Assembly: GCF_014698505.1 (NCBI RefSeq)
Contig: NZ_JACJTD010000016.1
Span: 62,001 to 126,000, forward strand
Direction: 5' to 3'
DNA: 64,000 nt
Source: Nostoc foliaceum FACHB-393
GTDB lineage: Bacteria; Cyanobacteriota; Cyanobacteriia; Cyanobacteriales; Nostocaceae
A model generated the notes under the pieces. That model was not told the DNA's origin and ran no database searches. It was given only the letters and a program-made list of their open reading frames with translations. Below are positions 19,471-63,300 of the stretch, piece by piece. Position 1 is the stretch's first letter; the number at the start of each line of letters is the position of its first letter. The position numbers and the translations under genes were made by a program.

Positions 19471-19637
19471 TTTCTCTTTCTTCTCACCTGAAAAATTAAT
19501 TGATAATTGACTGAACAATTCCGCAACAGTTTGTGAGGAACAAGCATATGTTCTAAAACATAAATTCATTAATCATAGAAACCTAGTTTTTACCAATAGG
19601 AGTAACTAAGCTTCGGCTTGAGAAATGAATTGATGTT

Positions 19638-20551: not shown

Positions 20552-20704
20552 GATTTTGCCTCTCATTTGATTTGTACATATTTACAACATAGAAGTTGTA
20601 CTGTTAGAATTAACGTACACTTTCTACTTACTAATCAAAAACTCAATACCTGAAATAAAGTGTAATTTGGCGCTCAAGTTATTGTCTGGCACTACATCAG
20701 TGTG

Positions 20705-21097
20705 CTATTGATTGGAATTAAGAATATCGTTTAGAGTACCAAAACAGCCCGCGGCCTTATTAAATCCTGCGTAAACGCACATGAACAAAAAAAGTTCTTC
20801 TATTTCTGCACGTGTAGCACCTTGTTGCATAGCCATCTTGACGTGCGCTGCAAAAGGACTACCAGTCCCGACTTGATCTTGATTGACAACATCAATAGCA
20901 ATTGTGATTAAAGCCTTGGTTTTTTGGTCGATTAACGGCAGACCCCATGCTTCACCTGCTACACGAGTACAAAAATCCCCAAACTTCGGATTGATACTAT
21001 TTAAAGCATCTTGAAGTTTTATATCATCTAAAACAGCATTTTTATATAGTGTTGCTTTACCATTTTGCTCCAATGCTGTATGATTCGTTGGACTCAT
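20705..21097 (-). CDS. Carboxymuconolactone-decarboxylase-like (CMD/AhpD fold) protein
   Basis: A ~130-residue all-helical CMD-family protein. The core (NPKFGDFCTRVAGEAWGLPL, HVKMAMQQGATRAEIEELFL) is almost the same as the N-terminal domain of the large fusion at 22645. The AhpD CxxC redox motif is absent; one Cys lies in FMCVYAG and another in AGCFG. The frame runs to 21160, but the ATG at 21097 has GGAG at a good distance and gives the usual length. It is divergent from the fusion gene across a 1.5-kb gap containing a repeat element. Confidence 0.85.
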   Translation of the reverse strand: MSPTNHTALEQNGKATLYKNAVLDDIKLQDALNSINPKFGDFCTRVAGEAWGLPLIDQKTKALITIAIDVVNQDQVGTGSPFAAHVKMAMQQGATRAEIEELFLFMCVYAGFNKAAGCFGTLNDILNSNQ

Positions 21098-21933
21098 AGT
21101 TTTTCTCCATTTATTACACAAATTTTGTTCTTGTACTGCAAAATTTTTTTGAGAATGCAAAGATCCACTCAGTGCTATGCTTGTGTAATACAGCAGTCCC
21201 AGATAAATCGTGAACGAAAAAAATCAGGATAAACCGTAAAGTATCGAAAGTATATGTTCCCTCAGCGTCTCGTAGAGAAAAAAGACAACAGAGAAGTGTT
21301 CACAAAAAATTGAGGATTGCTGTAATACCAACAACTTTGATGAATAGCTTAATTTAGATTTCCATCGATTGAACTAATGGAATTATACTGATAATTTTTC
21401 TGGTTATTCAGTACGAATTATCCTAAATTGTTTCATCATTATTCACAATGCACTAATAGCAGGCGTCTCAGCTAATATTCTCTCTTAAATTCTCTGGAAC
21501 GCATTGTCTCGCCTTTGTGTGATACTAGATTCATACTCTTAATTAGCAACACAACCTTAGGACGCAACAAGCTAATAATTAGCATAATATAGGACTCCAA
21601 TTTGATTTTTGAAAAAATACTGAGACTGAAAAGCCTGTTTGATCAGGGTTTCATCTCAAATCCTGTTGAGAAATCAGATAGGATTCCTATAGGTACTTAA
21701 GAAGCACTCTTCTTTGTACTGGATTCTGATGAATCAAGGAAACTTGTTTCTTTATTTCTTTTTAACAATTTCAGAAAGTATCAGCCAGCTAATATCTTTA
21801 AGTTAAGACTAAACTTAAGCTTTTATACTACCTACAGGGATAATTTTGTAAAAATACTCTTGCTCAAGGCACTATCCGTAAAATATAATCACTGGCTTAT
21901 AGCTGTACTTGTTTTCAGCAAATTAAGGCACTT

Positions 21934-22056
21934 ATGACTGTAGAAAACAAAGTCAGCAAGTCCACCCGCATGATTTATGTAGGGCAAACGTATCCAAAGT
22001 ATAAAGCCGAAGGGAAAAGGGATAAACTCAACGCGGCCACAATTCTACTAGCTTAA
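21934..22056 (+). CDS. Small ORF (40 aa), doubtful
   Basis: ATG to TAA with a basic, soluble composition (MTVENKVSKSTRMIYVGQTY). No recognised family and no strong ribosome site. It lies inside the long-inverted-repeat element, so it may be the 5' fragment of a captured gene. Confidence 0.25.
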   Translation: MTVENKVSKSTRMIYVGQTYPKYKAEGKRDKLNAATILLA

Positions 22057-22113
22057 AACCTTTTCCCCTTCCCCCTGAGCCTTCTTGATAAAAATCGTTT
22101 ATTGCAATTTGCA

Positions 22114-22145
22114 GTAGGGGCGCACAGCTAGCTGTGTGCCCCTAC
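22114..22145. repeat. 32-bp near-perfect palindrome
   Basis: GTAGGGGCGCACAG is followed by its inverse with one mismatch. The same arm forms the perfect palindrome at 45922-45949, so it belongs to a dispersed palindromic family. Confidence 0.75.
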
Positions 22146-22165
22146 AATGCCAAAAAGGAAGCCCA

Positions 22166-22204
22166 AGAAGTGATTTTTGGAATCCCACGCCTTGAAGCTG
22201 TGGG
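22166..22204 (+). mobile_element. IS200/IS605-type right-end hairpin remnant
   Basis: The sequence GGAATCCCACGCC followed by GTGGGAGGATGTTAAAA folds as a CCCAC/GTGGG hairpin and resembles the 3' ends of cyanobacterial IS605-type elements. No tnpA or tnpB is present. Confidence 0.4.
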
Positions 22205-22644
22205 AGGATGTTAAAACTTTCTCCGGTGATACTCTTAAATTGATCCTTAATTTATCGATCTTCTATACTCAAATCTTAAAAAAAAGTAAACAATTATTTC
22301 GTACTGAAACATTTGAACAGACTCTGACTAACAACTGGTTAGCAGATGTGCGTTTATCACTTTCTTCGTGTTGACAAATAAATTTAATAAGATATAGGAA
22401 TTCTATCTGATTTTTGAACAAGATTAGAGGCTAAACTTTCTTCAAACAGGCTTTTGAGTCTAAGTATATTTCGCAAAAATAAATACCTAGACCTATATAA
22501 TCACTAAGCGATCGCTAACATGAATGTAATTCATAATTAGATATGGACAAAGAAATGTTTGCTATCTCAGAACCGGATATCTGACTTAATTTCGTGAGAT
22601 TTTTGCCCCTAACTAATTACTGAAGTTAATGGTTGCAGCCTAAA

Positions 22645-25600
22645 ATGACATATGAAAAGGTGTACGAAAATGCAGTTCTGGATGATCAAGAACTCCAAGA
22701 GAGTTTAAAAGGTATCAATCCCAAGTTTGGTGATTTTGTTACTCGTGTAGCAGGAGAAGCATGGGGTTTACCATTAATTAACCAAAAGACTAAGGCTTTA
22801 ATCACACTTGCAGTTGATGTAGCCAATCAAGACCATATAGGTTCAGGAAATCCTTTTTCAGCACATGTGAATATGGCTCTCAAACAAGGAGCAACTTCCG
22901 CAGAAATTGAAGAACTTTTTTTATTCATGTGCGTTTATGCAGGATTCAATAAGGTTGCAGGTTGTTTTGGTACTCTTAATCAAATTATTGAACAAAGTAG
23001 AGTTGGACAAATGATCTCAGCAATCAGAAAGGCCGATTATGCAATCCGCGATCAAAAAGGCAAATTAGTATTTTACGTTCTTTTATGGAAAAAAAAGGGA
23101 ATAAAGCTAGACCTTTTTAATGACTATTGGAGAAATGTTCATGGTCCAGTCTGCGCTAGACTACCAGGCCAACATCAATACTGGCAGTTTCATTTATCTC
23201 ATAATCAGGGTGATTTGTGGGCAGTGAGTAATGGTATAGACTACAACTCCCAGCCAGAAGATCAATTTGATGGTATTGCCGAATTAACCTTTGAGACAGA
23301 AGCAGACCGGCAGAAATGGTTTCAGGCTGCGGCTGTGTTAATGGATGATGAACATAACTTATTTCACAAAGCAATTGGATATAACACTAGCTTTGGTAAT
23401 TCCAAAACTTATGTTGATACCATTACCACAGGAGACCCTAACGGAGAACCGGGTATTCTAAAGTTCCACGTCATGGTGAAAAAATCTGATGACGTGAGTG
23501 TGGAGGAGTTCCGTAAATATATGAGAGATAGCTTTGCCTCAGCTATCGTCAAGAATGATTTGGTACTCAAATTTAGACTGCATTTATTTGAGGAAGTAGA
23601 TAATTCGCGTCCTGATGCAGCAGGAGTAGTTCATAATGAACCACCAAAGCAACAGTATCAGGCGGCTTTTGAAATTGCATTCTCTAATCCTTTGGAAATG
23701 GAAAGATTCTTTGCCTCGAAAGAGTATGCAATAGCAGTCAAAGAACAGGCAAAATATGTTAGACAAATCAATTCATTTGCAGAACGGAGTGTTTACACTT
23801 TTGTCTACAACGGTCAGATGACCTTAGCAGGTCAGCGGAGTTCTAAAGTGGCACAATTAATCACAAAAATCGGAGCAACCAATCAATTGCAGGAGAATAT
23901 AGTTTCTCTCATGAATGGTAAGCAAAATGTTAAGTCTGGATTGGGTCATTATCTGCAAGGAATGCAACATGTCGGGGTTACGGTTCAAGACATGGAAAAA
24001 TCCCTCGAATTTTATTTAGAAGTGTTAGGAGGGAAATTAGTTCTTTCAGAAAATGGTTTGATGGGTGATGGGATGCAAAACACTCTTTTTCAAAAAGAAG
24101 AGATAGATGCAATTTTTCAAGGAATTGACCCGGAAAATTTTGACATTCCCAACCTCAGAGATGAAAAAGATGCATTGGATATTAAATTTATCTCTTTTGG
24201 TAACACTTGTATTGAACTGATATATTTCCGAGATGCTGCGACACCAAATGCTTTAGTTTCTTCTAAAAACAGCATTCCTTCTCACATTGGTAATGTGAAT
24301 GCAATGCATATCTCTTTCCATGTGAAAGATGATATCGACTTGAATGTTTTCGCCAAAATGTTGGAAGACGAGTGTCAAAAACGAGGGCTAACTAATGTTG
24401 TTTTTAATCGTGTAATTCGAGTAAAATCCGCAGAAGAAAGAAGAAATATTGCCCTGAAATACAATTCTAATAAATTTTGGAATGAGCCAGATTTATTAGC
24501 AGAGGGTGAAGCAGAAACAGAATTTGGTGAATTTGAAGGCTGGGCATTGTTTTATTGTAAAGGCCCCAATGGAGAACAGCTTGAATTCAATCAAGTCACC
24601 CGTAAGGCTAAAGAACATTTTGATAAAGCACAGGAGGAATATAATATGTCGAATGGAATATCTATCCCTGTTTCCAATGGGAAAGCAGAAACTGCGATCG
24701 CCAATTTCAACCAAGCTAATATAGAAAGACTTCCAGGTACAACAACAGACTTGGTAAAACGCTTGTTCTCAAGAGGCGAAGCCTTTGATGCTGAAGGATT
24801 TATTACTTTCTTTACTGACACACCAGTTTATCAGTTCGGTAACTTTGAAGTGTGTTTGGATAAAGCTGCAATTAAGAAATCTGCGGAAAATTTCTTCAGC
24901 CAAATCTCTGCTGTATACCACGATATCAAGATGATTCGGGAAATCGAAGATGTGGTATTTGTGGAAATGGATGTGATTTACTGGCGAAAGGATGGTTCTG
25001 TAGTCACACTACCTTGCTCTGATATATTCCGCGTAGAGGGCGATAAATTCTCGGAACTGCGAATTTTTATGGATGTAAATCCTGTATTTAACCCAACAAT
25101 TTTTGTCCCTCCCACAGCTTCGGTATTTACTATCAGCCAAGGCAAAAAACTTGCTGGATCAAGTATCATGAGGAAGCATTTTGCAGAACATCCTGAAGGT
25201 AAAAAAAGGGTGGAAGCTGGATTTGTTCCTAAATGGTCAATAGATGGGCCGAAATGGTCCATAGGTCAGCAAGAAGTAAATTTATCAGAACAGTTACAAG
25301 CTGTTGTGCAACTGTCTGAGTTCGTACTCAAGGAAAATTGGGAACAAGCTAAGAATTTTCTGACTGATGATATCTTTTATAAGGTTGGTTCATCTGAGCC
25401 AGTTTACGGAAAGCAAGCTGTTGTGAATTTCTTGTCTTCTTTGTTTACAAATACCGCCAAATTTATCAATCATGAAGTCAGAAAAATCTGGCAAGAACCA
25501 GGCATTGTTGTTGTAGAAATGGATGCCAAATACATCACTATCCAGGATAAAAGACATTTGACGATCGCCTGTTGTGATATTTATCGCTTGAGGGGCAACC

Positions 25601-25722
25601 AGGTGAGTGAATGGCGGGTTTATGCAGATATTCTGCCATTTTATCAAACTAGCCCCCAAGAACAACCAACTCCAACCAATGGTAATGGAAATAAATATAC
25701 TTCCAGTGTTGGATTGAAATAG
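22645..25722 (+). CDS. Multidomain fusion: CMD-EthD-EthD-VOC-SnoaL-SnoaL
   Basis: A ~1025-residue protein; residue numbers count from a TTG at 22633. Order: CMD-like (7-122), two EthD-like alpha+beta barrels (~135-250, ~270-400; NDYWRNVHGPVCARLPGQ), a vicinal-oxygen-chelate/glyoxalase domain (~440-657; possible metal ligands His446, Glu528, His559, Glu651) and two SnoaL/NTF2-like domains (~705-830, ~885-1003). A linker (RKHFAEHPEGKKRV) joins the last two. I use the ATG at 22645 (MTYEKVYEN), as in the stand-alone CMD gene, but no strong ribosome site is seen. Each domain type recurs in neighbouring genes. No signal peptide. I infer a multi-step enzyme or scaffold acting on a small hydrophobic compound; substrate unknown. 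Confidence 0.85.
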   Translation: MTYEKVYENAVLDDQELQESLKGINPKFGDFVTRVAGEAWGLPLINQKTKALITLAVDVANQDHIGSGNPFSAHVNMALKQGATSAEIEELFLFMCVYAGFNKVAGCFGTLNQIIEQSRVGQMISAIRKADYAIRDQKGKLVFYVLLWKKKGIKLDLFNDYWRNVHGPVCARLPGQHQYWQFHLSHNQGDLWAVSNGIDYNSQPEDQFDGIAELTFETEADRQKWFQAAAVLMDDEHNLFHKAIGYNTSFGNSKTYVDTITTGDPNGEPGILKFHVMVKKSDDVSVEEFRKYMRDSFASAIVKNDLVLKFRLHLFEEVDNSRPDAAGVVHNEPPKQQYQAAFEIAFSNPLEMERFFASKEYAIAVKEQAKYVRQINSFAERSVYTFVYNGQMTLAGQRSSKVAQLITKIGATNQLQENIVSLMNGKQNVKSGLGHYLQGMQHVGVTVQDMEKSLEFYLEVLGGKLVLSENGLMGDGMQNTLFQKEEIDAIFQGIDPENFDIPNLRDEKDALDIKFISFGNTCIELIYFRDAATPNALVSSKNSIPSHIGNVNAMHISFHVKDDIDLNVFAKMLEDECQKRGLTNVVFNRVIRVKSAEERRNIALKYNSNKFWNEPDLLAEGEAETEFGEFEGWALFYCKGPNGEQLEFNQVTRKAKEHFDKAQEEYNMSNGISIPVSNGKAETAIANFNQANIERLPGTTTDLVKRLFSRGEAFDAEGFITFFTDTPVYQFGNFEVCLDKAAIKKSAENFFSQISAVYHDIKMIREIEDVVFVEMDVIYWRKDGSVVTLPCSDIFRVEGDKFSELRIFMDVNPVFNPTIFVPPTASVFTISQGKKLAGSSIMRKHFAEHPEGKKRVEAGFVPKWSIDGPKWSIGQQEVNLSEQLQAVVQLSEFVLKENWEQAKNFLTDDIFYKVGSSEPVYGKQAVVNFLSSLFTNTAKFINHEVRKIWQEPGIVVVEMDAKYITIQDKRHLTIACCDIYRLRGNQVSEWRVYADILPFYQTSPQEQPTPTNGNGNKYTSSVGLK

Positions 25723-25902
25723 TCACATCAAATTGATTTCCACTATCAGGCGAAGATTTTTCGGGTCATGAATTATGTTCTCCTTGGTTAATTTTTCTAG
25801 ACAGCGAATGCAGCGATCGCTACATATATAGTCATCCGCTTTGATTTGTGAAATTATTTGCGTAGTCCGGGAGTGCGGAGTGCAAAGTGGGGAGTAGGAA
25901 TA

Positions 25903-25958
25903 AAGGCTGTTTGAGTGTACGCAGTTTTTTCACACAATCAAATATGAGTCCTATATTT
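25903..25958. repeat. Degenerate copy of the GAGTCCTATAT repeat arm
   Basis: GGCTGTTTGAGTG, a T-rich stretch and AAATATGAGTCCTATATT align with the repeat arm at 54245-54298. It lies in the 357-bp gap between the fusion gene and the Nif11-like/SnoaL gene; nothing else is recognised there apart from a HIP1 site at 25814. Confidence 0.4.
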
Positions 25959-26079
25959 TTAGTTCTTCGGTGTATAGGTTTCAATCAACCATCTGCTCAT
26001 AGAAAGCTTAACCAAAGAGATTTTTCTCAAAAATTGGCTATGAATTCCACAAAATATAGAAACAAAATGAGGTTAGATC

Positions 26080-27267
26080 ATGTCACAGAAAGTAATTAGT
26101 TTATTAGCATCGGCGTTTGAAAATCCTAGCTTGCAACAGAAACTTCACTCAGCTAATACTCCCGAAAGCTTCGTCAAAATAGCATCGGAAAATGGCTATG
26201 AAATTACTAAAGAAGAATTAGCCAAATCACTTGGTACAGTACATGTGGTTTTTGGTGAAGTCGTTCTATCAATGATGGATGAGTTAATGGCAGGAGCATC
26301 TGCTTCAAACGATAAAACCCCGACAATAGAAAAAGTTTCTGGAACCAATGTAGACTTAGTAAAGTGCTTGTTTTCTAGAGGTGAAGCTTTTGATTCAGAA
26401 GGATTTATTACGTTCTTTACAGATAACCCAGTATATCAATTTGGCAATTTTGAAGTTTGTTTAGATAAACAAGCGATTAAAAAATCGGCGGACAACTTCT
26501 TCAATCAAATCTCGGCGGTGTATCACGAGATCAAAGTGATATGGGAACTAGGAGATTTGGTCTTTGTAGAAATGGATGTTCTCTACTGGCGCAAAGATGG
26601 CTCGCTGGTTTCTCTTCCTTGCACAGACATTTTCCGCGTCGAAGGGGATAAGTTCAGTGAACTGCGGATTTTTATGGATGTGAATCCCGTGTTTGATCCT
26701 ACCCTTCCTGTTCCTCAATCTGCTTCTGTGTTGACTGCAAAAGAAGGAAAGCAATTATTACCTCCTGGAACAATGAGGAAGCACTTCGCAGAACATCCCG
26801 AAGGAAAAGAAAGGGTCAAAAATGGATTTGTCCCAAAATGGTCAATCGCTGGACAAAAATGGTCAATTGATTCTGAAAATAAAGCTAATGACCAATCATC
26901 AGAACAGTTAAAAGCTGTGGGTGAATTAGCTCAGTCCGTTATGAATCAAGATTGGGAAAAGGTCAAAACTTACTTAACTCCTGACATCTTTTACAAAGTA
27001 GGTTCAGGTGAACCTGTTTATGGCCCTCAAGCTGTTGTAAATTTCTTTAAACAAGTATTTAACAATACTGCGGTGTTTTATGGTCATGAAGTCCGGAAAG
27101 TTTGGCAAGAGCCAGGCATCATCACCATAGAAATGGATGCCCAATACCAGTTAGTTGGAAGTAAAAAGCATGTTACTATCGCCTGCTGCGACATCTATCG
27201 TCTGAGAGGAAACCAGGTGAGTGAATGGCGGGTTTATGCAGATATGTCTCCGTGGAACACCCTGTGA
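26080..27267 (+). CDS. Nif11-like N-terminal domain fused to two SnoaL-like domains
   Basis: A 395-residue protein. Residues 1-50 fit the Nif11 pattern: LASAFENPSLQQKL, then TPESFVKIASENGYEITKEE. Nif11 domains are small helical modules of diazotrophic cyanobacteria that also gave rise to RiPP leader peptides. Residues ~90-220 and ~270-392 are SnoaL/NTF2-like and align with the last two domains of the fusion gene, including the same linker (MRKHFAEHPEGKERV). A strong ribosome site (GAGG) precedes the ATG. No metal site or signal peptide is seen. Whether the Nif11 part is a docking module, leader or relic is open. Confidence 0.82.
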   Translation: MSQKVISLLASAFENPSLQQKLHSANTPESFVKIASENGYEITKEELAKSLGTVHVVFGEVVLSMMDELMAGASASNDKTPTIEKVSGTNVDLVKCLFSRGEAFDSEGFITFFTDNPVYQFGNFEVCLDKQAIKKSADNFFNQISAVYHEIKVIWELGDLVFVEMDVLYWRKDGSLVSLPCTDIFRVEGDKFSELRIFMDVNPVFDPTLPVPQSASVLTAKEGKQLLPPGTMRKHFAEHPEGKERVKNGFVPKWSIAGQKWSIDSENKANDQSSEQLKAVGELAQSVMNQDWEKVKTYLTPDIFYKVGSGEPVYGPQAVVNFFKQVFNNTAVFYGHEVRKVWQEPGIITIEMDAQYQLVGSKKHVTIACCDIYRLRGNQVSEWRVYADMSPWNTL

Positions 27268-27333
27268 GGCTGAAAGGGTGACATTTTTAGGTCAGCAACA
27301 ACTTGTCAATAAGTAATCATGCTTAAAATCTCG

Positions 27334-27365
27334 TTAAAAATCGTGTTTACAACTTCGATTTTTAA
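27334..27365 (+). terminator. Stem-loop terminator candidate
   Basis: TTAAAAATCG (27334-27343) pairs exactly with CGATTTTTAA (27356-27365) around a 12-base loop, 67 bases after the Nif11-like/SnoaL gene. The T-rich 3' arm is compatible with intrinsic termination. Confidence 0.5.
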
Positions 27366-27502
27366 GCCAGCAATGCCCAAGGGCAAGCCTCTAAGTGTCC
27401 ACACCCCATCTTGAAAAACATGGTTCAGTTCATCCTTTGTCAGTGCAACCTTAACTTAGCAGTAGTGAAACAAAGTTAGATAGCCAAAGGAAAATAAAAA
27501 TC

Positions 27503-28627
27503 ATGATGAGACGACTAACCTCGCTTTTCGCATCAGTGGCGCTGGGAGTGAGCCTGATGCCCTTGCCGAGCTTTGCTCAGAACGTAATTAGCAGTGAGCA
27601 GATAGGCGGTGGCAATATTACAAGCGAGCCTGAGAACTCTGATGCGACGTTCACCCATCATACAGCTGATGTCAACGGCGTACGTCTACACTATGTGATG
27701 GGTGGACAAGGCGATCCCCTCGTCTTGCTGCATGGCTGGACGCAAACTTCATATGCGTGGAATCGCATCATGCCTGCTCTGGCCGAACGCTACACGGTGA
27801 TTGCACCAGACACGCGGGGTCTTGGTGATTCCTCGAAGCCGGACAGCGGCTATGACAAACGAACGATGGCTGAAGACATCTACCAGCTCGTCCAGCATCT
27901 CGGTTTTGATGATATCTCTCTCGTTGGGCACGACATAGGCGGACAGATCGCCTACGCCTACGCCAATGCTTATTCGGAAGACGTAAACCATCTGGCGATC
28001 CTGGAAGTCCCGATTCCGGGTCTCGAAGGTTGGGAAAATGTTTCAAGCGAACAAAGTGCTTGGCACTTCCAGTTTCATGCCGTCCCCGACCTCCCGGAGG
28101 CTTTAGTCACGGGGCGAGAGCGGATTTATTTTTCCCATTTCTACGAAAATTATGCCTACGACCCGACAGCAATCACCGAGGCTGACATCAACGAGTATCT
28201 TCGGACTTATTCTAACCCAGATGCCCTGCACGCTGGATTCGAGTACTACCGAGCTTTCCCTGAGGACACGAGGTACAACAGAGAACACATTAAAATGCTC
28301 GATATGCCAGTGTTAGCGCTGGGGGGCGAAAGCACCTTAGGAGACTTTCCCTTGATACAGTTGCAAACGGTGGCCAAGAACATTCGCGGTGGCACGATGC
28401 AGGGCTGCGGACATTACATACCGGATGAGTGTGCAGAGGCTCTGACTGAAGAGCTTCTGAGCTTCTTAGGCGACTCTGATCACCCTGTATCTCAACCTCC
28501 TTTGGTTAATATTCCTGAACCGAGTTCTACATTGAGCATACTCGCCTTTGGCGCTTTCAGTGCTGGTGTGCTGTTAAAGCACAGACAGCGACAGACAGAA
28601 ACCTCAAAGTTGTTTCGAGCAAAGTAG
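27503..28627 (+). CDS. Exported alpha/beta hydrolase (epoxide-hydrolase-like) with PEP-CTERM tail
   Basis: A 374-residue hydrolase with a Sec signal peptide (RRLTSLFASVALGVSLMPLP then SFAQ). The nucleophile elbow VGHDIGGQIAY has Asp as nucleophile, as in epoxide hydrolases and haloalkane dehalogenases; the oxyanion motif is HGWTQT and the catalytic His is in GCGHYIPDE. The C-terminus is a PEP-CTERM sorting signal (IPEPSSTLSILAFGAFSAG, then basic HRQRQ), so it is probably processed by an exosortase. A strong AAGGA site precedes ATG. Base composition is higher in G+C than its neighbours (32 of 60 at 27721-27780 versus 22 of 60 at 28741-28800), which suggests later acquisition. Confidence 0.88.
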   Translation: MMRRLTSLFASVALGVSLMPLPSFAQNVISSEQIGGGNITSEPENSDATFTHHTADVNGVRLHYVMGGQGDPLVLLHGWTQTSYAWNRIMPALAERYTVIAPDTRGLGDSSKPDSGYDKRTMAEDIYQLVQHLGFDDISLVGHDIGGQIAYAYANAYSEDVNHLAILEVPIPGLEGWENVSSEQSAWHFQFHAVPDLPEALVTGRERIYFSHFYENYAYDPTAITEADINEYLRTYSNPDALHAGFEYYRAFPEDTRYNREHIKMLDMPVLALGGESTLGDFPLIQLQTVAKNIRGGTMQGCGHYIPDECAEALTEELLSFLGDSDHPVSQPPLVNIPEPSSTLSILAFGAFSAGVLLKHRQRQTETSKLFRAK

Positions 28628-28689
28628 AAACTGATTTTGTTTCGTCAATAGCTAGCTTCAAATAATTAATAGACAAAAAAGGAGTAATT

Positions 28690-29148
28690 ATGTCAGAACA
28701 GTTACTTTCGGAACAGTTAGAAGCTGTTGTACAACTGTCAAGCTTTGTACTTAATGAAAATTGGGAACAAGCCAAGCGATTTCTCACTGATGACATCTTT
28801 TATAAAGTTGGTTCATCGGAACCTGTTTATGGTAAACAAGCTGTGGTGAATTTTTTATCTTCTATGTTTACAAATACAGCCAAATTTACAGGGCATAGCG
28901 TCCGAAAAATTTGGAATGAACCAGGCATTATTGTTGTAGAAATGGATGCGAAATACATCACTGTGCAGGATAAAAGACATTTGACCATAGCCTGTTGTGA
29001 TATTTACCGCTTGAGAGGCAACCAAGTGAGTGAATGGCGAGTTTATGCAGATATTTTGCCTTTTTATCAAACTAACTCCCAAGAACAACCAACCCAAACA
29101 AATGGCAATAGAAATAAAGATTCTTCCAGTGCTATTTTGAGCAGGTAA
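28690..29148 (+). CDS. Single-domain SnoaL-like protein
   Basis: A 152-residue SnoaL/NTF2-fold protein. From SEQLEAVVQLSSFVLNENWE to the end it is nearly identical to the last domain and tail of the large fusion (shared DDIFYKVGSSEPVYGKQAVV, HLTIACCDIYRLRGNQVSEW and the Asn/Gly-rich tail). This points to a recent copy of that module into a free-standing gene. AAGGAG precedes the ATG. SnoaL-fold enzymes include polyketide cyclases and limonene-epoxide hydrolases; the activity here is not known. Confidence 0.85.
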   Translation: MSEQLLSEQLEAVVQLSSFVLNENWEQAKRFLTDDIFYKVGSSEPVYGKQAVVNFLSSMFTNTAKFTGHSVRKIWNEPGIIVVEMDAKYITVQDKRHLTIACCDIYRLRGNQVSEWRVYADILPFYQTNSQEQPTQTNGNRNKDSSSAILSR

Positions 29149-29216
29149 CAGTGAGTTAACAGAGTCGTTGTTAGGATGTCAAAACTGTAGATTTTTAGTT
29201 AAAGAGTCACCTGTAT

Positions 29217-30296
29217 ATGGTTACTAAAAAAAAGTTATCAATGCTTGTCGCTGGAGCAGTGATTTCAGGTTTTTGTTTAGGGCTACAAGCTGCATACGCA
29301 CACGGTGGGCAGGAACATAGTGGGCATGAAGAAGAACCAGAGAATGTTTTAGTTGTACCACCAGAAGCCCCAGGTCGTGAGGCATTCTACGCATCGGGCG
29401 ACCTGTATACCTTTTTAGCAACTGGCAAAGAAACCAAGCAACTGTTCTCGCTATTCAATTTTGACGTTCCATCTGGGGGCGGGCCTGATCTACACGTCCA
29501 CGGTCGTGAAGCTGAGTCGTTCTTTATTCTACAGGGAGAGTTGACGGTTCAGATGGGAGACCGTAACAACAGCATGGTTGCGACCCCCGGAACCTTCATT
29601 TACCTTCCTAAAGGTAGACCTCACTCATTTATAAACAATACATCAACGCTGGTGAGGACGCTATCGCTCACTACTCCCGCCGGACTTGAGAATTTATTCA
29701 TTAACTTAGGCATACCAGTTACCGACAGAAATGTTCCGCCACCTCCCATCACTGAAGAGGATCTCCGAAGATTTGCCGAAGAAGGCCCGAATTACGGTCT
29801 ACAACCTATACCACCTGGAACCACACTCCCCCCAACAGATGGACTTTTAGATTTCGTAGTAGTGCCGCCTGGGGCACCAAATCGTGAGTCATTTTTAATT
29901 GGGGGTAACAGGTATACTTCTTTAGCAACTGGCAACGAGACTGGCGGTCTGTTCTCGCTATTTGATGTTTCCGTTCAACCGCAAGCTGAGGGTGGACTGC
30001 TACAGAGCAACTCTAAGGATGCTGAATCGTTCTATGTGCTAGCAGGGGAGCTGACATTCGAGTTGGAAAACCAAAGCTTTGTTGCCAAGCCCGGAACCTT
30101 TGTTTATCTTCCCGAAGACACACCTTACAGCTTTCAAAACCTTGGAACCACCCAGGCAAGGACGCTGTTCCTTCGCACCCCGACTCCTGTCCCCGAACCA
30201 TCTTCTTGGTTGGGTGTATTGGGATTTGGTACGGTTTTAGTGTTGAAACAGAAGCAGAAACAGCAGAAATTAGCCAGTTTTTCAAACCCAGAGTAA
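29217..30296 (+). CDS. Exported bicupin protein with PEP-CTERM tail
   Basis: A 359-residue protein with a signal peptide ending in AAYA, followed by a His-rich start of the mature protein (HGGQEHSGHEEE). The first cupin keeps the metal ligands (LHVHGREAESFFILQGEL and PKGRPHSF: His-x-His, Glu, His). The second has lost them (SNSKDAESFYVLAGEL, PEDTPYSF), so only one metal site is expected. The C-terminus is a PEP-CTERM signal (VPEPSSWLGVLGFGTVLVL plus Lys/Gln tail). Possibly a quercetinase-like dioxygenase acting outside the inner membrane; substrate unknown. Confidence 0.85.
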   Translation: MVTKKKLSMLVAGAVISGFCLGLQAAYAHGGQEHSGHEEEPENVLVVPPEAPGREAFYASGDLYTFLATGKETKQLFSLFNFDVPSGGGPDLHVHGREAESFFILQGELTVQMGDRNNSMVATPGTFIYLPKGRPHSFINNTSTLVRTLSLTTPAGLENLFINLGIPVTDRNVPPPPITEEDLRRFAEEGPNYGLQPIPPGTTLPPTDGLLDFVVVPPGAPNRESFLIGGNRYTSLATGNETGGLFSLFDVSVQPQAEGGLLQSNSKDAESFYVLAGELTFELENQSFVAKPGTFVYLPEDTPYSFQNLGTTQARTLFLRTPTPVPEPSSWLGVLGFGTVLVLKQKQKQQKLASFSNPE

Positions 30297-30472
30297 CTAA
30301 GAATCTGTGATGAACCGAACTTAATTACTTGAGGACTTGCCCAACTCTGATGCCTGAAACCTCTTTGTTTTAAACTCAGCGTTGGTAAGTAGTTTCTTGT
30401 TGCTTAGTCTAAACTCCAGTCATCTATAGAGATTCAGCTAAACTGATCAGCGAAATCAAGGAGAATAACAAT

Positions 30473-31207
30473 ATGGGAACACTTGTCGGAAAAGTCGCAA
30501 TTGTGACTGGAGCATCACGGGGTATTGGAAGGGCGATCGCAGAACGCTTAGCTCAAGACGGTGCGTCCGTTGTGGTAAACTATGCTAACAGTTCTGCCAA
30601 AGCGAAAGAAGTGATCGCAGGTATCGAAGCTAGAGGTGGACAAGCCCTTGCCTTACAAGCTGACATCAGCAAAGTTAACGATATCCGCCACTTGTTCCAG
30701 GCAACAATCGATCACTTCGGTCACTTGGATATCTTAGTCAACAATGCAGGACTTGCCATTTATAAGCCATTCGTGCAACTGACGGAGGAAGAATTTGATA
30801 CGGTCTTTACGGTCAACACTCGGGGTACTTTCTTCGCCTTGCAGGAAGCAGCGCGGTGGATGGCGGACAACGGTCGCATCGTCAGCATTTCAACAGGTGG
30901 CACTGTTTCGCCTAGCCCTACCGCTTCCATCTACGCTGGAAGTAAAGCAGCAGTCGAGCAGTTTACAAAAGTACTTGCTAAGGAGATAGGAGAACGGGGT
31001 ATTACAGTTAACGCTGTTTCACCAGGATTTACGGATACGGAAATGCTCGCTAGCAATCCCCAATTGAAAGAAAAGGGACTGAAGATGTCTCCCTTGGGTA
31101 GATTGGGGCAACCTGCTGACGTAGCCGATGTCGTTGCGTTCTTGGTCAGTGAAGAAGCACGCTGGCTCACAGGACAAAACATCCAAGCTGGCGGCGGAGC
31201 GGTATAG
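30473..31207 (+). CDS. Short-chain dehydrogenase/reductase (SDR, FabG-like)
   Basis: A 244-residue classical SDR: cofactor motif GASRGIGRAIAERL, NNAG at ~87-90, catalytic Ser in VSISTGG and Y-x3-K in IYAGSKAAVEQF. The Asn in VVVNYAN after beta-2 is typical of NADPH-preferring members. AAGGAG precedes ATG. It lies between the exported bicupin and the porin and probably supplies a ketone/alcohol step in the cluster's pathway. Confidence 0.9.
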   Translation: MGTLVGKVAIVTGASRGIGRAIAERLAQDGASVVVNYANSSAKAKEVIAGIEARGGQALALQADISKVNDIRHLFQATIDHFGHLDILVNNAGLAIYKPFVQLTEEEFDTVFTVNTRGTFFALQEAARWMADNGRIVSISTGGTVSPSPTASIYAGSKAAVEQFTKVLAKEIGERGITVNAVSPGFTDTEMLASNPQLKEKGLKMSPLGRLGQPADVADVVAFLVSEEARWLTGQNIQAGGGAV

Positions 31208-31261
31208 ATTCATACGCTTGGGCAAAGAAATTGATTTGTTAAAGTATTTTACAAATTACCA

Positions 31262-32986
31262 GTGGTGAGAAGAATTTATTTGCACTTGATCAGTAGCCTC
31301 AGCATCCTGGGACTAATTGCCCAGAGTACTTTTGCATTAGCTGGAGTGTCTGAGTCTACTGCTGTTAGCCGAGAATGGTTAATTACTCCTGAGGCAGTAT
31401 CTGCTGCAAACTTTGACCTTTGGGGAACAACAGACAAAACCACGACAGCTACAACCATTCCACCTACCACCACTTTCATAGCCCAACTAGCCCCAGATGC
31501 TACTCTCCAGGGTGAAACTCTTTCCACGCCTGCCTCAATGGATTCAGTCACCTCTGTATCCCAGTTTGCAGATGTGCAGCTTACTGACTGGGCTTTTCAA
31601 GCATTGCAGTCCTTAATTCAACGCTATGGTTGTATCACCGGTTATGCCGATGGCACTTATCGTGGCAACCAAGCTTTGACCCGCTATGAATTTGCTGCTA
31701 ATTTAAATGCTTGTTTAGAGCGAGTTAATCAGCAGATTGCCACAGCGACAGCAGACTCAGTAACACAAGAAGAATTAGTTACTTTGCAACGTTTGCAAAC
31801 TGAATTTTCACCAGAACTCGCCACCTTGCGAGGTCGTGTGGATAGTTTAGAAGCACGCACGGCAGAGGTAGCAGCTAGTCAATTTTCTACCACTACAAAG
31901 CTCATTGGTCAAGCAATTTTTGCCGTGAATATGGGCGGATTTAGTGGCGATCGCATCATTGCTCCCACAGGGGCAGTGATTGCCGATGAAAACCCGAATG
32001 CTACCTTTATCTATCGGGCTTCTCTAAATCTGAACACCAGTTTTAACGGCACCGATCTGTTACAAATCCGCTTACTTTCAGGCAGCGATGGTTCCAATGA
32101 TAACGCCGCCGGATTTTTGGAACCCAACTTTGGCAGTGTCCTAGACTTTTCTGTTCCTGGTAGGAACGACCAGTTGGGTATCGGTCGTCTGTTCTACACT
32201 TTCACCCCTGTTAAGGATCTGAGTGTAACTCTGGGAGCAGCGATCGTTGCTACAGACTTTGTAGATAAAAACGCCTACGCTAATACAAGTTTTCTGGACT
32301 TTTCAACCCAAGCATTAATCAATAACTTTATCCTATTCCCCCGTCCGGCTGGATCTGGTGCAGTCATTAACTGGAATCCGGGAGGAGGCGCATTTAAGCT
32401 ACGGGCAGTGTATGTAGCTGCAAATGGAGCTAGTTTAAACTCTGATAGCCAGAGATTTATTGGTGGACCATCAGCTCCTATATTGATATTTCCTAACCGT
32501 GGTGGTGATGGTGGTTTGTTCGCAGATCCTTACCAAGGCATCATTGAACTAGAGTACTCTGAGGGCAAAGCTTTTGCTGTGCGTCTCCAATACGCTGGCG
32601 GTGAAGTATTAGATAGCCGCTTTAATGCTTTCGGAGTCAACTTTGAACTAGCACTCTCACAAACAATAGGTGTCTTTGGTCGTTATGGTTATGGCGACTA
32701 CAGCAACACATTCCAAGGTGACATTAACCCCAACTATTGGATGGCTGGTATCGCTTTCCGAGATTTGTTTGTACCAGGAGGTTTAGCGGGTATTGCTGCT
32801 GGTCAACCGTTCATTGAAAATACAGTAGGAAATGCCACCCAAACTAATATTGAAGCGTTTTATAACTTACCAATTAGCGACAACATCAGAGTTACGCCAT
32901 TGGTACAGGTAATCATCGACCCTGGTAATCAGAACATTAACGGCACGATTATCACTGGTACAGTGCGGACTGTCTTTTCCTTCTAG
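31262..32986 (+). CDS. Iron-uptake-porin family outer-membrane protein with SLH domain
   Basis: A 574-residue porin starting at GTG, with a signal peptide (LISSLSILGLIAQSTFALAG). A single SLH domain follows (FADVQLTDWAFQALQSLIQR, GYADGTYRGNQALTRYEFAA), then a short coiled coil (LATLRGRVDSLEARTAEVA) and an OprB-type beta barrel ending in aromatic TVFSF. The family is annotated as iron-uptake porins, but members carry diverse solutes. Its place 54 bases after the SDR suggests it serves the cluster as the outer-membrane channel. A homologue lies at 58043. Confidence 0.9.
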   Translation: MVRRIYLHLISSLSILGLIAQSTFALAGVSESTAVSREWLITPEAVSAANFDLWGTTDKTTTATTIPPTTTFIAQLAPDATLQGETLSTPASMDSVTSVSQFADVQLTDWAFQALQSLIQRYGCITGYADGTYRGNQALTRYEFAANLNACLERVNQQIATATADSVTQEELVTLQRLQTEFSPELATLRGRVDSLEARTAEVAASQFSTTTKLIGQAIFAVNMGGFSGDRIIAPTGAVIADENPNATFIYRASLNLNTSFNGTDLLQIRLLSGSDGSNDNAAGFLEPNFGSVLDFSVPGRNDQLGIGRLFYTFTPVKDLSVTLGAAIVATDFVDKNAYANTSFLDFSTQALINNFILFPRPAGSGAVINWNPGGGAFKLRAVYVAANGASLNSDSQRFIGGPSAPILIFPNRGGDGGLFADPYQGIIELEYSEGKAFAVRLQYAGGEVLDSRFNAFGVNFELALSQTIGVFGRYGYGDYSNTFQGDINPNYWMAGIAFRDLFVPGGLAGIAAGQPFIENTVGNATQTNIEAFYNLPISDNIRVTPLVQVIIDPGNQNINGTIITGTVRTVFSF

Positions 32987-33034
32987 AATCTGCGCTCCTA
33001 CTATTAGAAATATCCACAAATTAACCTCAAAGTT

Positions 33035-33205
33035 GGCGTTGCTGAATTTGAATATGAAATTCAAAAATCAACTCTTCTCAACTCTTACTCTGGAGCAACT
33101 CTGCGCCTCTGCGTGAACAAATTTGCGTAAAATCGTAGCGAAATGAGGGTTGAAATTTAAACGCACAGGAGCGCAGAGGTAAGCGCAAAGTTACGCAGAG
33201 AATTC
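33035..33205. repeat. Dispersed repeat with GGCGTTGCTGAATT end
   Basis: Starts GGCGTTGCTGAATTTGAATA and holds an inverted repeat of the form CTCTGCGCCTCTGCG / GCGCAGAGG. The first ~80 bases are closely related to 53326-53410. It fills the gap between porin and MFS genes; no ORF. Confidence 0.55.
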
Positions 33206-33294
33206 GCTATAAATTAATAAAATTTTGTACTTAGATACAGGGAGAAATACAACACTTGTTTACTGTTCATTGTTAATAATAAGGAAGCCTAAAT

Positions 33295-34488
33295 ATGGAT
33301 TCAATTGAACATATCAGTCACGGTAAAAACCGTAGTCCAGTCTATCTTGATCAAAATCTTCTGATTATTTTCGGTATTACTTTGATGGGTATACTAGGAG
33401 TTTCCAGTGTGACTCCGGCTTTTCCAAAGCTAGCCCAAGAATTAAATGTACCACCTCAAAATGTTGGATTACTGGTGACGGTATTCACCTTTCCTAGTAT
33501 CTTACTCACTCCTGTTCTTGGTGTCCTGGCAGACCGATTAGGCAGAAAAAAAATACTTGTTCCCTCACTGATGTTATTTGGAATTGCCGGAGTAGCATGT
33601 GCCTTTGTTCGTGATTTTAATCTGTTATTAATATTACGTTTCATTGAGGGTATGGGTGCAGCTTCCTTAAATTCTCTGAATGTGACGCTGATTGGCGATT
33701 TATATTCAGGTAAAGAACGCACCACTGCTATGGGCTACAACGCCAGTGTCAGTAGTGTAGGTACTGCAACTTATCCAACTATTGGCGGAGCAACTGCGGT
33801 GATGGGATGGAATTATCCTTTTATGCTTCCCATATTGGCCATACCTATAGGACTGCTTGTTTTGTTTTCACTCAAAAATCCGGAACCAAAAAGCAAGCAG
33901 AATTTTCTTGAATATGTGAGAAATGCATGGGGAAGTGTGAGAAATAGACAATTTTTTGGAATTTTTTTCAGCACGGTTGCAACTTTCATGCTCCTCTATG
34001 GAGCCTATGTAACCTATTTGCCAATTGTGATGAAAAATTCCTTCAATGCCTCTGCTTTTACGATTGGCATTATTCTCTCAAGTATGTCTGTTACAATTAC
34101 ACTCACATCACTGCAATTGGGAAAATTAACAAAAAAGTTCTCAAAAAAAAGTTTGGTGAGAGCATCATTTGTATTCTTTGCGATCGCTCTAGCAATAATT
34201 CCCTTGATTCACAGTCTTTGGTTCCTGTTAATTTCAACAATGATTTTTGGCGTAGGCCTTGGCATCGGCTTCCCTAGTATTCAAACTCTCTTAGCAGAGA
34301 TGGCACCCAAGGAATATCTAGCTGCAATTATGTCGATAAATGGAACCTTTTTAGGATTTGGGCAAACTTTAGGGCCACTATTAATGGGAATAGCTTTTGG
34401 CATGTTTGGAATTAGTAGTGTTTTTTATGTGGCTGCAATCTTTTCACTTGCCACTCTTTTAGTTTTTAAACGTTGCACATGCATGTAA
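33295..34488 (+). CDS. Major facilitator superfamily transporter
   Basis: A 397-residue, 12-helix inner-membrane transporter. The loop 2-3 signature is LGVLADRLGRKKILVPSLML and the helix-4/5 region (RFIEGMGAASLNSLNVTLIG, MGYNASVSSVGTATYPTIGG) fits drug/H+ antiporter-type MFS proteins. AAGGA precedes the ATG. Between the porin and the EthD/SnoaL gene, it is the likely inner-membrane importer or exporter of the cluster's compound. Confidence 0.9.
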   Translation: MDSIEHISHGKNRSPVYLDQNLLIIFGITLMGILGVSSVTPAFPKLAQELNVPPQNVGLLVTVFTFPSILLTPVLGVLADRLGRKKILVPSLMLFGIAGVACAFVRDFNLLLILRFIEGMGAASLNSLNVTLIGDLYSGKERTTAMGYNASVSSVGTATYPTIGGATAVMGWNYPFMLPILAIPIGLLVLFSLKNPEPKSKQNFLEYVRNAWGSVRNRQFFGIFFSTVATFMLLYGAYVTYLPIVMKNSFNASAFTIGIILSSMSVTITLTSLQLGKLTKKFSKKSLVRASFVFFAIALAIIPLIHSLWFLLISTMIFGVGLGIGFPSIQTLLAEMAPKEYLAAIMSINGTFLGFGQTLGPLLMGIAFGMFGISSVFYVAAIFSLATLLVFKRCTCM

Positions 34489-34587
34489 TCAATTAAGGTT
34501 ATTCTGGAAAACTTGAAACATCAAACAAGTTTAAGGATTAAGTTTTCATCTCAATCAAAACAGTAGATGTAGCAAAGGAAAGCAGTA

Positions 34588-36135
34588 ATGTTAGCAACAA
34601 GTAGAAAATTCGATTATGCAGTCAGGGATCAAAAAGGTAAAGTATCCTTCTATGTTCTCTTGTGGAAACGTAAAGGAATTTCTCTAGAACTTTTTGATGA
34701 CTATTGGAGAGACGTTCACGGCCCAGTTTGCGCCAGACTACCAGGACAGAATCAATACTGGCAGTTTCACGTAGCTGCAAATGAAGGTGGTCTATGGCCA
34801 ACCATTAACGGCATTGAATACACTTGTCCAGAAGAAGATCAATTTAATGGTATTGCCGAATTAACCTTTGAGACAGCAGCCGAACGGGATCTCTGGTTTA
34901 AATCTGCTGCCATCCTCATGGATGATGAGCATAATGTATTCAGGAAAGCCATCGGTTACAACACTAGTTTTGGTAATTCTCAAACTTATTTTGATAGCAT
35001 TCCCACAGGAGATCCTAACGGTCAATTAGGTGTAATTAAGTTTCACGTTATGGTGGAAAAATCTGATGCCGTGAGTGTGGAAGATTTTCGCCGATATCTC
35101 ACAAATAGCTTTGCACCAGCTGTTATCGAGAGTGATTCTGTTTTCAAATTCCGCCTACATTTGTTCGAGCAAGTAGATAACTCTCGTCCAGATGCGGCTG
35201 GGGTTTCTCATTACGAATCCCCAGAAAAACAGTATCAAGCTGCGTTTGAAATTGCTTTTGCTAATCCTTTGGAAATGGAAACATTTTTTGCTTCCAAAGA
35301 ATATGCGATCGCTGTTAAAGACCAAGCTAAATATGTGCAGCGGCTTTTACCATTTCCCGAACGAAGTGCTTACACTTTTGTTTACGACGGCAAAATGACT
35401 CTAGCAGGTCAGCGCAGTTCTACAGTAGCAGAATTGATTGCAAATATTGGCGCAACTAATCAACTCAAGGAGGACGTAGTTAGTCTTATGTTAGAGCAGA
35501 AACTCATTTCTTACTCAAATGGTCAGTCGAATGGTCACCAAAACACCAACACAACCAACACATTGATTAATAAACGAACTAACTACTACAAAGATTTAGC
35601 CGCAGATTATTCTCGACCAGGACTTGTGAGTGCTTATGTAGCAAAAAAACTCATAGAGGATGCTGAAAAAATTGTGGCAATGAAAGAAAGAACTTTGCCA
35701 GAAATTAGTCCTTATTACACTCTAAAACAAATTGAACAAGAAAATAAAGAATGGTGGCCTACCCATTGTGAGGCATTGAGACAGGGACGTGGCGATATAT
35801 TAACAGGTGAATATCGAGATGATTTAGTTTATTTCTGTCAGGATGGACCCTATCAAGGCTTAGAACAACAAAAAGAGCGCGAACAGCATTGGTGGGCATT
35901 AATTGCTCAACCAGGTGTGACCATGTGCTGGCCAATTGTCATGTTTCATGATGAAGTTACCTACTTTGAATGGAAGTGTGTCGATGATGAAACCAACGAA
36001 ACACTCGCCAAGGGAAATGTTACCTGGATTCGACGTGGCCATCGAGGCGGATGCTATCTCAAAACAGAACAATTGACGTTCTACCGCGATGTTTTTGCTC
36101 CCAGTGAACTGCTGAAGTTAATCAAGACTGCCTAA
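34588..36135 (+). CDS. Tandem EthD domains plus C-terminal SnoaL-like domain
   Basis: A 515-residue protein. Residues 1-300 are two EthD-like alpha+beta barrels that align closely with residues ~128-430 of the large fusion (VRDQKGKVSFYVLLWKRKG, DDYWRDVHGPVCARLPGQ, AYTFVYDGKMTLAGQRSS). A low-complexity linker rich in Asn/Thr (~315-340) leads to a helical part and a SnoaL/NTF2-like domain (~395-510; GEYRDDLVYFCQDGPYQGLE, WECVDDE-type core). This SnoaL is divergent from the others in the cluster. No signal peptide. Probably acts on the same substrate as the fusion. Confidence 0.85.
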   Translation: MLATSRKFDYAVRDQKGKVSFYVLLWKRKGISLELFDDYWRDVHGPVCARLPGQNQYWQFHVAANEGGLWPTINGIEYTCPEEDQFNGIAELTFETAAERDLWFKSAAILMDDEHNVFRKAIGYNTSFGNSQTYFDSIPTGDPNGQLGVIKFHVMVEKSDAVSVEDFRRYLTNSFAPAVIESDSVFKFRLHLFEQVDNSRPDAAGVSHYESPEKQYQAAFEIAFANPLEMETFFASKEYAIAVKDQAKYVQRLLPFPERSAYTFVYDGKMTLAGQRSSTVAELIANIGATNQLKEDVVSLMLEQKLISYSNGQSNGHQNTNTTNTLINKRTNYYKDLAADYSRPGLVSAYVAKKLIEDAEKIVAMKERTLPEISPYYTLKQIEQENKEWWPTHCEALRQGRGDILTGEYRDDLVYFCQDGPYQGLEQQKEREQHWWALIAQPGVTMCWPIVMFHDEVTYFEWKCVDDETNETLAKGNVTWIRRGHRGGCYLKTEQLTFYRDVFAPSELLKLIKTA

Positions 36136-61379: not shown

Positions 61380-61422
61380 CCCAAAAATACAGAATTTTCA
61401 CTCACATATCACAACTAAACTT

Positions 61423-62424: not shown

Positions 62425-62448
62425 AACTAGAGCTATAGGGAGAAAAAA

Positions 62449-63273: not shown

Positions 63274-63300
63274 TCATTAGTTACTAGTCATTAGTTGTAA
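63274..63300. repeat. Short CATTAGT tandem repeat between convergent genes
   Basis: Two CATTAGT copies separated by TACTAGT lie between the phnE stop and the end of the GntR gene; the regulator's last residues (TTND) are encoded inside the repeat. Same family as 3504-3563. Confidence 0.65.

Follow-up and report, generated by a model that had tools for sequence, protein, structure and literature searches.

The cyanobacterium Nostoc foliaceum FACHB-393 (Nostocaceae) carries on contig NZ_JACJTD010000016.1 (RefSeq assembly GCF_014698505.1) a group of genes encoding proteins with CMD, EthD, VOC and SnoaL domains. The DNA analyzed here, referred to as the window, comprises 64,000 nucleotides of this contig (positions 62,001 to 126,000 of the forward strand), and all coordinates are those of the window. 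An initial annotation, made from the sequence alone, had flagged the interval from 20705 to 36135 as an undescribed pathway that takes up, changes or exports one small hydrophobic compound. Here, we describe the genes of this interval, the minus-strand genes for a glycogen debranching enzyme (GlgX), a DJ-1/PfpI family protein and an AGE-fold protein that accompany them, and the relationship of this gene set to the icfG operon of Synechocystis.

The interval contains ten open reading frames (ORFs), nine of which lie on the plus strand, in keeping with the description of the genes as nearly all on one strand. The CMD, EthD, VOC and SnoaL domains reported there are present by Pfam analysis, distributed over five proteins rather than four. 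The single minus-strand gene (20705-21160) encodes a CMD-family protein (Pfam CMD, E 1.6e-12, 47.7 bits against a cut-off of 23). On the plus strand, the gene at 22633-25722, with an ATG at 22645, encodes a 1029-residue fusion of a CMD domain, two EthD domains, a VOC/Glyoxalase domain and two SnoaL domains. A protein with a Nif11 domain and two SnoaL domains (26080-27267; Pfam, and TIGR03798 at 35.6 bits against a cut-off of 32.3) and a single SnoaL protein (28690-29148; Pfam) are encoded downstream, and the last gene of the interval (34588-36135) encodes two EthD domains, recognized by Pfam, followed by a conserved C-terminal domain of 185 residues that we term ETHC. The initial annotation had listed all of these domains except the Nif11 domain and ETHC. 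Interspersed among these genes on the plus strand are those for an alpha/beta hydrolase (27503-28627; Pfam, with a GHD nucleophile elbow and a PEP-CTERM-like tail discerned by eye), a bicupin with a PEP-CTERM tail (29217-30296; Pfam and NCBIfam), a short-chain dehydrogenase/reductase (SDR; 30473-31207; Pfam), an SLH-OprB porin (31262-32986; NF033921, 313 bits against a cut-off of 100) and a major facilitator superfamily (MFS) transporter (33295-34488; Pfam and NCBIfam). All five lie where they had been placed. The hydrolase and the bicupin are called "exported" because of signal-peptide-like N-termini recognized by eye, and the PEP-CTERM tail of the bicupin passes the NCBIfam cut-off (17.2 bits against 16) but not that of Pfam (16.9 against 20.7). 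Many other cyanobacteria with ETHC encode it in a separate gene, of about 190-220 residues. Two identities considered for this domain, a relative of SnoaL (hhalign probability 0.1) and a C-glycoside deglycosidase of the CGDB type (one of 13 members, E 0.14), were too weak to retain.

A scan of genome contigs yielded 26 loci related to the window, 25 of them cyanobacterial and one in a metagenome-assembled genome of Ignavibacteria (L055); loci L033, L040 and L041 were dropped because they lie on the same contigs as G022, G010 and G023. The loci used for gene-order comparison, for the AGE and EthD trees and for the tally of architectural forms presented below were chosen by their similarity to window genes, and their numbers do not represent prevalence. 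The core that recurs in gene order over these loci comprises CMD, ETHC, DJ-1/PfpI, GlgX, AGE and STAS. The steadiest partners are three minus-strand genes outside the flagged interval, encoding the DJ-1/PfpI family protein (19922-20566; Pfam), a GlgX-type glycogen debranching enzyme (17353-19569; TIGR02100) and a fusion of an AGE-fold, sugar epimerase-like protein with a STAS domain (15142-17313; fold model and alignments); the hydrolase, bicupin, SDR, porin and MFS transporter of the interval are variable members. In the full locus L037 the genes are arranged in the order CMD, EthD2-ETHC, CMD-EthD2-VOC-SnoaL2, Nif11-SnoaL2, cupin, ABM, DJ1, AGE, STAS, GlgX, and in G114, L050 and L046 STAS and RsbW/IcfG genes follow GlgX. 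The gene order at other loci therefore rules out 20705-36135 as the whole unit, an extent that leaves out its most constant members. The unit probably starts near 11707 and ends at 40731 or beyond, perhaps at 45862.

To avoid selecting on the answer, we searched evenly drawn cyanobacterial genomes (194, then 386, that of N. foliaceum included). In the draw of 194, AGE was found in 14 genomes, ETHC in 11, any match to the 22633 protein in 13 and its EthD part in five; every one of the 11 ETHC genomes has AGE as well. The draw of 386 contained 25 genomes with ETHC, four of which (G251, G302, G319, G368) are small and come from a different family within the class. Within 20 kb of ETHC in these 25 genomes (N. 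foliaceum included), CMD was present in 22, DJ-1 in 21, AGE in 20 and GlgX in 19, and all four were present in 19, where position alone would lead one to expect well below one (by arithmetic, for 40 kb out of a genome of 2-9 Mb). As several of the stretches extend no more than about 9 kb from ETHC in each direction, the counts are lower bounds. These co-location counts rule out chance proximity, the alternative that the initial annotation had raised against itself: homologs of these genes do cluster in other genomes. An EthD, VOC or SnoaL gene of any kind lies within 20 kb of ETHC in 13 of the 25 genomes. The 22633 protein has some match in 16 of 59 genomes and strong EthD-bearing matches in eight of 35 genomes of the same genus (N. 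foliaceum included in both), a sporadic distribution within the genus.

We consider it rather probable that the flagged genes form the accessory portion of a recurring cluster that moves horizontally, that has GlgX, AGE, DJ-1/PfpI, CMD, ETHC and STAS regulation at its core, and that is a relative of icfG. A glycogen- or sugar-linked small-molecule pathway is the best reading of this gene set. The proposal of one small hydrophobic compound fares poorly, as glycogen and sugar enzymes make up the constant partners, whereas the porin, MFS transporter, hydrolase and bicupin are variable.

The passages of two reports that deal with the icfG operon of Synechocystis (PMC12329169, PMC8670252) describe slr1852-1862 as encoding an N-acetylglucosamine 2-epimerase (Slr1855), STAS proteins (Slr1856, slr1859), GlgX (slr1857), IcfG (slr1860) and a kinase (Slr1861), and as tied to carbon and glucose control. 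They place a second operon, comprising sll1307-1304 and sll1784-1785, on the opposite strand, and handle the icfG operon mainly as a regulatory one (PMC12329169, PMC8670252). In these passages icfG has since 1994 represented a link of glucose use, inorganic carbon and growth (Beuf et al., cited in PMC12329169), and slr1852-1862 is salt-repressed (PMC8670252). Two genomes (G125, G142) contain the minimal order ETHC-CMD-DJ1-AGE-STAS-GlgX-STAS-IcfG-RsbW, which fits the published members of slr1852-1862 and so links the cluster to icfG. The genes slr1853 and slr1854 presumably encode CMD and DJ-1, which occupy the same place in G125 and G142. AGE, STAS and GlgX are common to the operon and the window, where they occur together. 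The operon includes an IcfG phosphatase and an RsbW-type kinase, whereas no match to the ICFG or RSBW profile (E 1e-3) was found among window ORFs of at least 60 residues, and the window STAS is fused to AGE and lacks the phosphorylatable Ser. The window has, in addition, four genes with EthD, VOC or SnoaL domains, to which the stretches around the minimal loci G125, G142 and G148 showed no match. On the basis of the two tested features, the phosphatase/kinase pair and the phosphoacceptor Ser, the window cluster is related to the icfG operon and not a member of it. The description of the pathway as new can be kept in part: the unit looks like a pathway and no description of its EthD/SnoaL part was found in searches of open-access papers, while its core relates to a published operon. 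Divergent from the minimal cluster in G125 (L079 14192-19913) are genes for an ABM protein, two cupin-like proteins, a xylose-isomerase-like TIM barrel, an alpha/beta hydrolase, a polysaccharide deacetylase and an HbpS-type protein, so that cupin-like and hydrolase genes recur there too; both cupin-like proteins match the window bicupin profile, and the one scanned with Pfam gave no family.

The cluster occurs in two architectural forms. Among 48 AGE regions, which include two AGE fragments of the N. foliaceum genome (C60, C63) and a split gene (G234b), AGE is fused to STAS in 12 and unfused in 36. A gene for a response-regulator and thioredoxin-reductase-like FAD protein (TRXR) is present in nine of the 12 fused regions and in one of the 36 unfused regions. 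IcfG or RsbW homologs occur in 23 of the unfused regions, some stretches ending before that place, and one fused region (L035) has an IcfG match, within a 1691-residue ORF at its far end. In an AGE tree of 34 rows, built without G296 and G368, which were found later, a branch with 99/92 support separates the ten fused rows from all others, and L055 and G051 sit on long branches. Both forms are found within Nostoc, which speaks for horizontal transfer.

The STAS domain of the window reads CISAAGLR, with Ala at the position that we take, by comparison with SpoIIAA, to be the phosphoacceptor, whereas the unfused STAS proteins inspected read YMSSAGLR, YMASAGLR or FMSSAGLR. Inspected by eye, the 12 fused STAS domains have Ala (5), Ser (3), Asp (2), Thr (1) or Asn (1) at this position. 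Since the STAS domain is fused, has Ala at the phosphoacceptor position and is accompanied by no homolog of the phosphatase or kinase in the window, its sequence indicates that the phosphorylation switch has probably been lost in the window lineage. A pair consisting of a kinase and an FAD-response-regulator protein probably replaces it. One half of this pair, the regulator pair of the fused form (form B), is a cNMP-binding, HATPase_c kinase-like protein (11707-13107, minus strand; Pfam) whose gene adjoins TRXR/AGE-STAS in other form B loci; the other half is the TRXR protein (13122-14783, minus strand; Pfam), which is without a CxxC pair and has a single Cys that is conserved in nine of nine aligned proteins.

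The predicted structure of the 606-residue AGE-fold protein (15142; pLDDT 80.7) has the (alpha/alpha)6 fold of the AGE superfamily. In Foldseek it matches the glucose 2-epimerase 8h1l (E 3.5e-14), and cellobiose 2-epimerases (3wkf) and other AGE enzymes are matched as well. It shares 17-18% identity with the top matches and differs from these epimerases in possessing extra N- and C-terminal beta segments in addition to STAS. In a profile match to the AGE protein 8bry, the first His of the HxxE motif and the K-x-W-W stretch align, whereas the GHAIE of 8bry is aligned with GHNLK and the Glu after WWPHN with Gln; the HxxE/D motif, the Glu of which we take to be catalytic, is thus absent and HxxK stands in its place. 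All 32 aligned rows have H379 and K382 (the alignment holds 32 of 34 AGE proteins; that of ETHC holds 34 of 38), and GHNLK is found in 11 of 11 plasmid proteins. As far as the motif can tell, the AGE protein is perhaps not a standard epimerase and perhaps carries out new chemistry.

The other core enzymes were compared in alignments of full-length proteins within set length limits, partial ORFs being left out here as for TRXR. The GlgX protein scores 708.3 bits against the TIGR02100 cut-off of 640.9, and the GH13 triad D389, E426 and D498, assigned from motif reading, is kept in 27 of 27 aligned proteins of 680-760 residues; both features identify it as a GlgX debranching enzyme. In DJ-1, C133, H134 and E22 are kept in 35 of 35 aligned proteins, and in CMD, E70 and H106 are kept in 33 of 33. 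The window CMD protein shares the Pfam CMD domain with the PcaC/AhpD carboxymuconolactone decarboxylase family, and differs from it in falling short of the PcaC cut-off (44.8 bits against 155.7) and in lacking the CxxC redox pair of AhpD, which rules it out as an AhpD-type peroxidase.

DJ-1 and VOC folds include glyoxalases, a fact in line with a set of DJ-1, VOC and CMD proteins that detoxifies reactive carbonyls or peroxides and so protects cells during glycogen breakdown. The conserved nucleophile Cys of DJ-1 would suit such a set, as would the formaldehyde-fixation genes of the ribulose monophosphate (RuMP) pathway, encoding 3-hexulose-6-phosphate synthase (HPS) and 6-phospho-3-hexuloisomerase (PHI), that lie beside EthD-VOC-SnoaL genes in G023 (L077 6298-7596, above NCBIfam cut-offs) and L047 (6340-7638, profile matches). 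We nevertheless regard detoxification as improbable. Without CxxC the CMD proteins do not resemble AhpD-type peroxidases, glyoxalase models score far below their cut-offs (16.9 bits against 120 for the 22633 protein and 16.3 against 131.25 for DJ-1), and fused multi-domain proteins with two EthD and two SnoaL domains would be left without explanation.

The AGE protein also has matches on 22 plasmid records, of which 17 among those listed reach 80% coverage or more; the records listed include eight of Streptomyces as well as Gemmobacter, Deinococcus and Runella. ETHC occurs on five plasmids, all cyanobacterial. We examined 12 of the 22 plasmid neighborhoods with flanks of 9-22 kb, the other ten being five Streptomyces near-copies, three weak matches and two more. 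The 12 belong to Cyanobacteriota (6), Actinomycetota (3), Pseudomonadota (1), Deinococcota (1) and Bacteroidota (1). Annotated in them are GlgX (9), DJ-1 (10), a thiamine pyrophosphate (TPP)-binding enzyme (9), a GMC oxidoreductase (4), EthD (5), an NTF2/ester-cyclase protein of the SnoaL type (6) and VOC (5). A sixth EthD was found by sequence in Nostoc sp. NIES-3756, which has the cluster on plasmid pNOS3756_1, and a DJ-1-like "type 1 glutamine amidotransferase" is annotated in seven of the 12. In Runella, a run of ester-cyclase and NTF2 genes has a GMC gene on one side and DJ-1 on the other. For the two TPP enzymes that were scanned, the best models were benzoylformate decarboxylase and acetolactate synthase, all those shown scoring below cut-off. 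These plasmids raise the possibility, which we put forward only tentatively, of a cross-phylum, often plasmid-borne pathway that converts a glycogen-derived sugar to a small compound through a novel chemistry of the AGE protein (HxxK active site) and through TPP, GMC, DJ-1, CMD, EthD and SnoaL proteins, under STAS partner-switch control. Were this so, the icfG phenotypes of Synechocystis would partly reflect the pathway and not only the regulatory circuit.

Further homologs of ETHC, DJ-1 and AGE, forming a second but incomplete set, lie in the N. foliaceum genome itself on the short contigs C45, C60, C63 and C146 (L106-L109), the AGE homologs being 41-45% and the ETHC pieces 57-71% identical. 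Contig C146 has relaxase-like and ParA-like ORFs (by eye) and thus may be a plasmid.

CMD, EthD, VOC and SnoaL-type folds are known from polyketide tailoring and from the catabolism of aromatics. The flagged genes might on this ground form an independent cluster for the tailoring, or the aromatic-type breakdown, of a hydrophobic compound, with the scaffold coming from elsewhere and the glycogen genes as mere neighbors. Such a cluster would be consistent with a distant EthD relative (35%) located among dioxygenase and transporter genes on a Roseomonas plasmid, with a copy in Gloeothece PCC 7822 near genes for KAS III, a methyltransferase, hpaB and a halogenase, and with some loci that contain EthD or SnoaL and have no AGE in the stretch. 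Yet AGE lies within 10 kb of the EthD part in all five genomes of the 194-genome draw that have the latter, and EthD, VOC or SnoaL-type genes accompany AGE in other phyla too. Moreover, as the initial annotation had stated, the window shows no polyketide synthase, nonribosomal peptide synthetase or terpene synthase: none was found among the 34 proteins scanned with Pfam, a set that excludes the MalQ-like protein at 36278 and other, mostly short ORFs. With no scaffold synthase among the scanned proteins the locus does not qualify as a polyketide, nonribosomal peptide or terpene cluster, and we judge a tailoring or breakdown cluster to be unlikely.

In the preferred reading, a glycogen- or sugar-linked pathway, GlgX would, together with the MalQ-like protein (36278) and a GH63-like enzyme (41118) present here, open glycogen or maltodextrin and release a glucan or glucose. 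The AGE protein and the SDRs would then isomerize or oxidize the sugar, and DJ-1, CMD, EthD, VOC and SnoaL proteins, whose compact folds are of isomerase, cyclase, decarboxylase or dehydratase type, would convert the resulting carbonyl or lactone compound by decarboxylation, isomerization, dehydration or cyclization. The MFS transporter, the porin, and the exported cupin and hydrolase might move or finish a product or substrate outside the cell. The metabolic genes of icfG (AGE, GlgX, DJ-1, CMD, ETHC) recur as a set, sporadically, across cyanobacteria and partly on plasmids of four further phyla, and this set comes with recurring EthD, SnoaL and VOC enzymes. This raises a testable question, namely what the set makes from, or feeds into, glycogen. 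Two further outcomes are an AGE-fold family whose motif has changed and ETHC, a domain of 185 residues for which Pfam has no family.

Several observations weigh against such a pathway. Each of its chemical steps is deduced from protein folds, and the motif residue at which AGE departs from its solved relative 8bry means that the label "epimerase" may be wrong. ETHC is without a recognized fold, gave no convincing sequence match in Pfam or PDB and no profile match to the SnoaL genes, and the predicted structure of the EthD-ETHC protein is poor (pLDDT 51). The assignment of the G125 and G142 genes to slr18xx counterparts rests on gene content and order rather than on a named PCC 6803 sequence. 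G008 and G426 have ETHC and none of the four core partners in the fetched stretch, and G193 and G234 have CMD as the only partner near ETHC, with AGE megabases away. EthD or SnoaL genes occur without AGE in the stretch in G009b, L044, L047, L052, L054, L058, G426 and G302. Finally, 12 of the 25 genomes showed no EthD, VOC or SnoaL near ETHC, which makes these domains accessory, and they could serve another pathway that has settled nearby. Among the ETHC genomes, G302 has no AGE or GlgX near ETHC and G172 no GlgX or CMD.

The accessory proteins appear to have arisen in part by duplication. The SnoaL protein at 28690 is 84% identical to the last SnoaL domain of the 22633 gene, and all five matches of the 22633 protein in the 8.87-Mb N. 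foliaceum genome lie inside the cluster, other domain copies being 65-84% identical; the copies therefore look like internal duplicates. Similar CMD-EthD-VOC-SnoaL fusions were found in many loci, and nine EthD architectures were counted. In G251 and G302, EthD and VOC are encoded by genes of their own close to ETHC, whereas in many Nostocales they form one chain with SnoaL, often also with CMD. In an EthD tree from a short search, both EthD-pair genes of one locus group together in L046, L036 and L035, and the EthD copies of L050, G114 and G123 fall among close kin. EthD copies within a locus thus appear as if homogenized, and gene conversion or repeated duplication may blur their history.

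The Nif11 domain of the 26080 protein could mark its SnoaL pair as a carrier or modified precursor in a system linked to peptides or to ribosomally synthesized and post-translationally modified peptides (RiPPs). Its TIGR03798 score above cut-off, the 12 Nif11-SnoaL2 proteins found across the compared loci, and two free Nif11 leader peptides that adjoin EthD and GMC genes on a plasmid of Nostoc ATCC 53789 (L121 15164-15824) all point in this direction. In the window protein, however, Nif11 (residues 3-47) is followed by two SnoaL domains and no short core peptide, so that it does not qualify as a Nif11 precursor; no RiPP-modifying family was found among the window proteins scanned, and Nif11 lies near ETHC in just three of the 25 genomes. 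We consider such a system highly unlikely.

Downstream of the flagged interval, the plus strand encodes a MalQ-like protein (36278-37798; 4-alpha-glucanotransferase, a name read from the sequence), which adjoins EthD-ETHC also in L052 and G426, followed by an NADPH-dependent FMN reductase family protein (37928-38506), an aquaporin (MIP; 39062-39871) and an SDR (39958-40731), these three identified by Pfam and gene-order comparison. A GH63/MGH1-like glycosidase (41118-43775, plus strand; Pfam) has homologs in two other loci (a family of 885-886 residues), and an LtrA protein (44648-45862, minus strand; Pfam), with homologs in three other regions, is a possible outer edge of the unit. MalQ, the GH63-like glucosidase and the glucose-1-dehydrogenase-type SDR are partners in a few loci. 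By annotation and position rather than alignment, the Nostoc C052 plasmid has a "glucose 1-dehydrogenase" placed like the SDR at 39958. Annotation also places "glucosidase" genes beside GlgX/AGE, and LtrA genes near AGE, on the C052 and N. edaphicum plasmids.

Scans of the window for promoters and terminators gave sites not above those in shuffled sequence (37 versus 40.5 and 15 versus 15.1, respectively), and Rfam and tRNA scans of the window found nothing. Elsewhere in the window, 5034-6464 encodes a protein of the Rieske/pheophorbide a oxygenase family, and phosphonate-type ABC transporter genes lie at 60582-63868, with a UTRA-domain regulator on the opposite strand. A multicopper oxidase is encoded at 54299-56065, and homologs of it occur in the stretches of G022, G026, G014, L051, L052 and G426.

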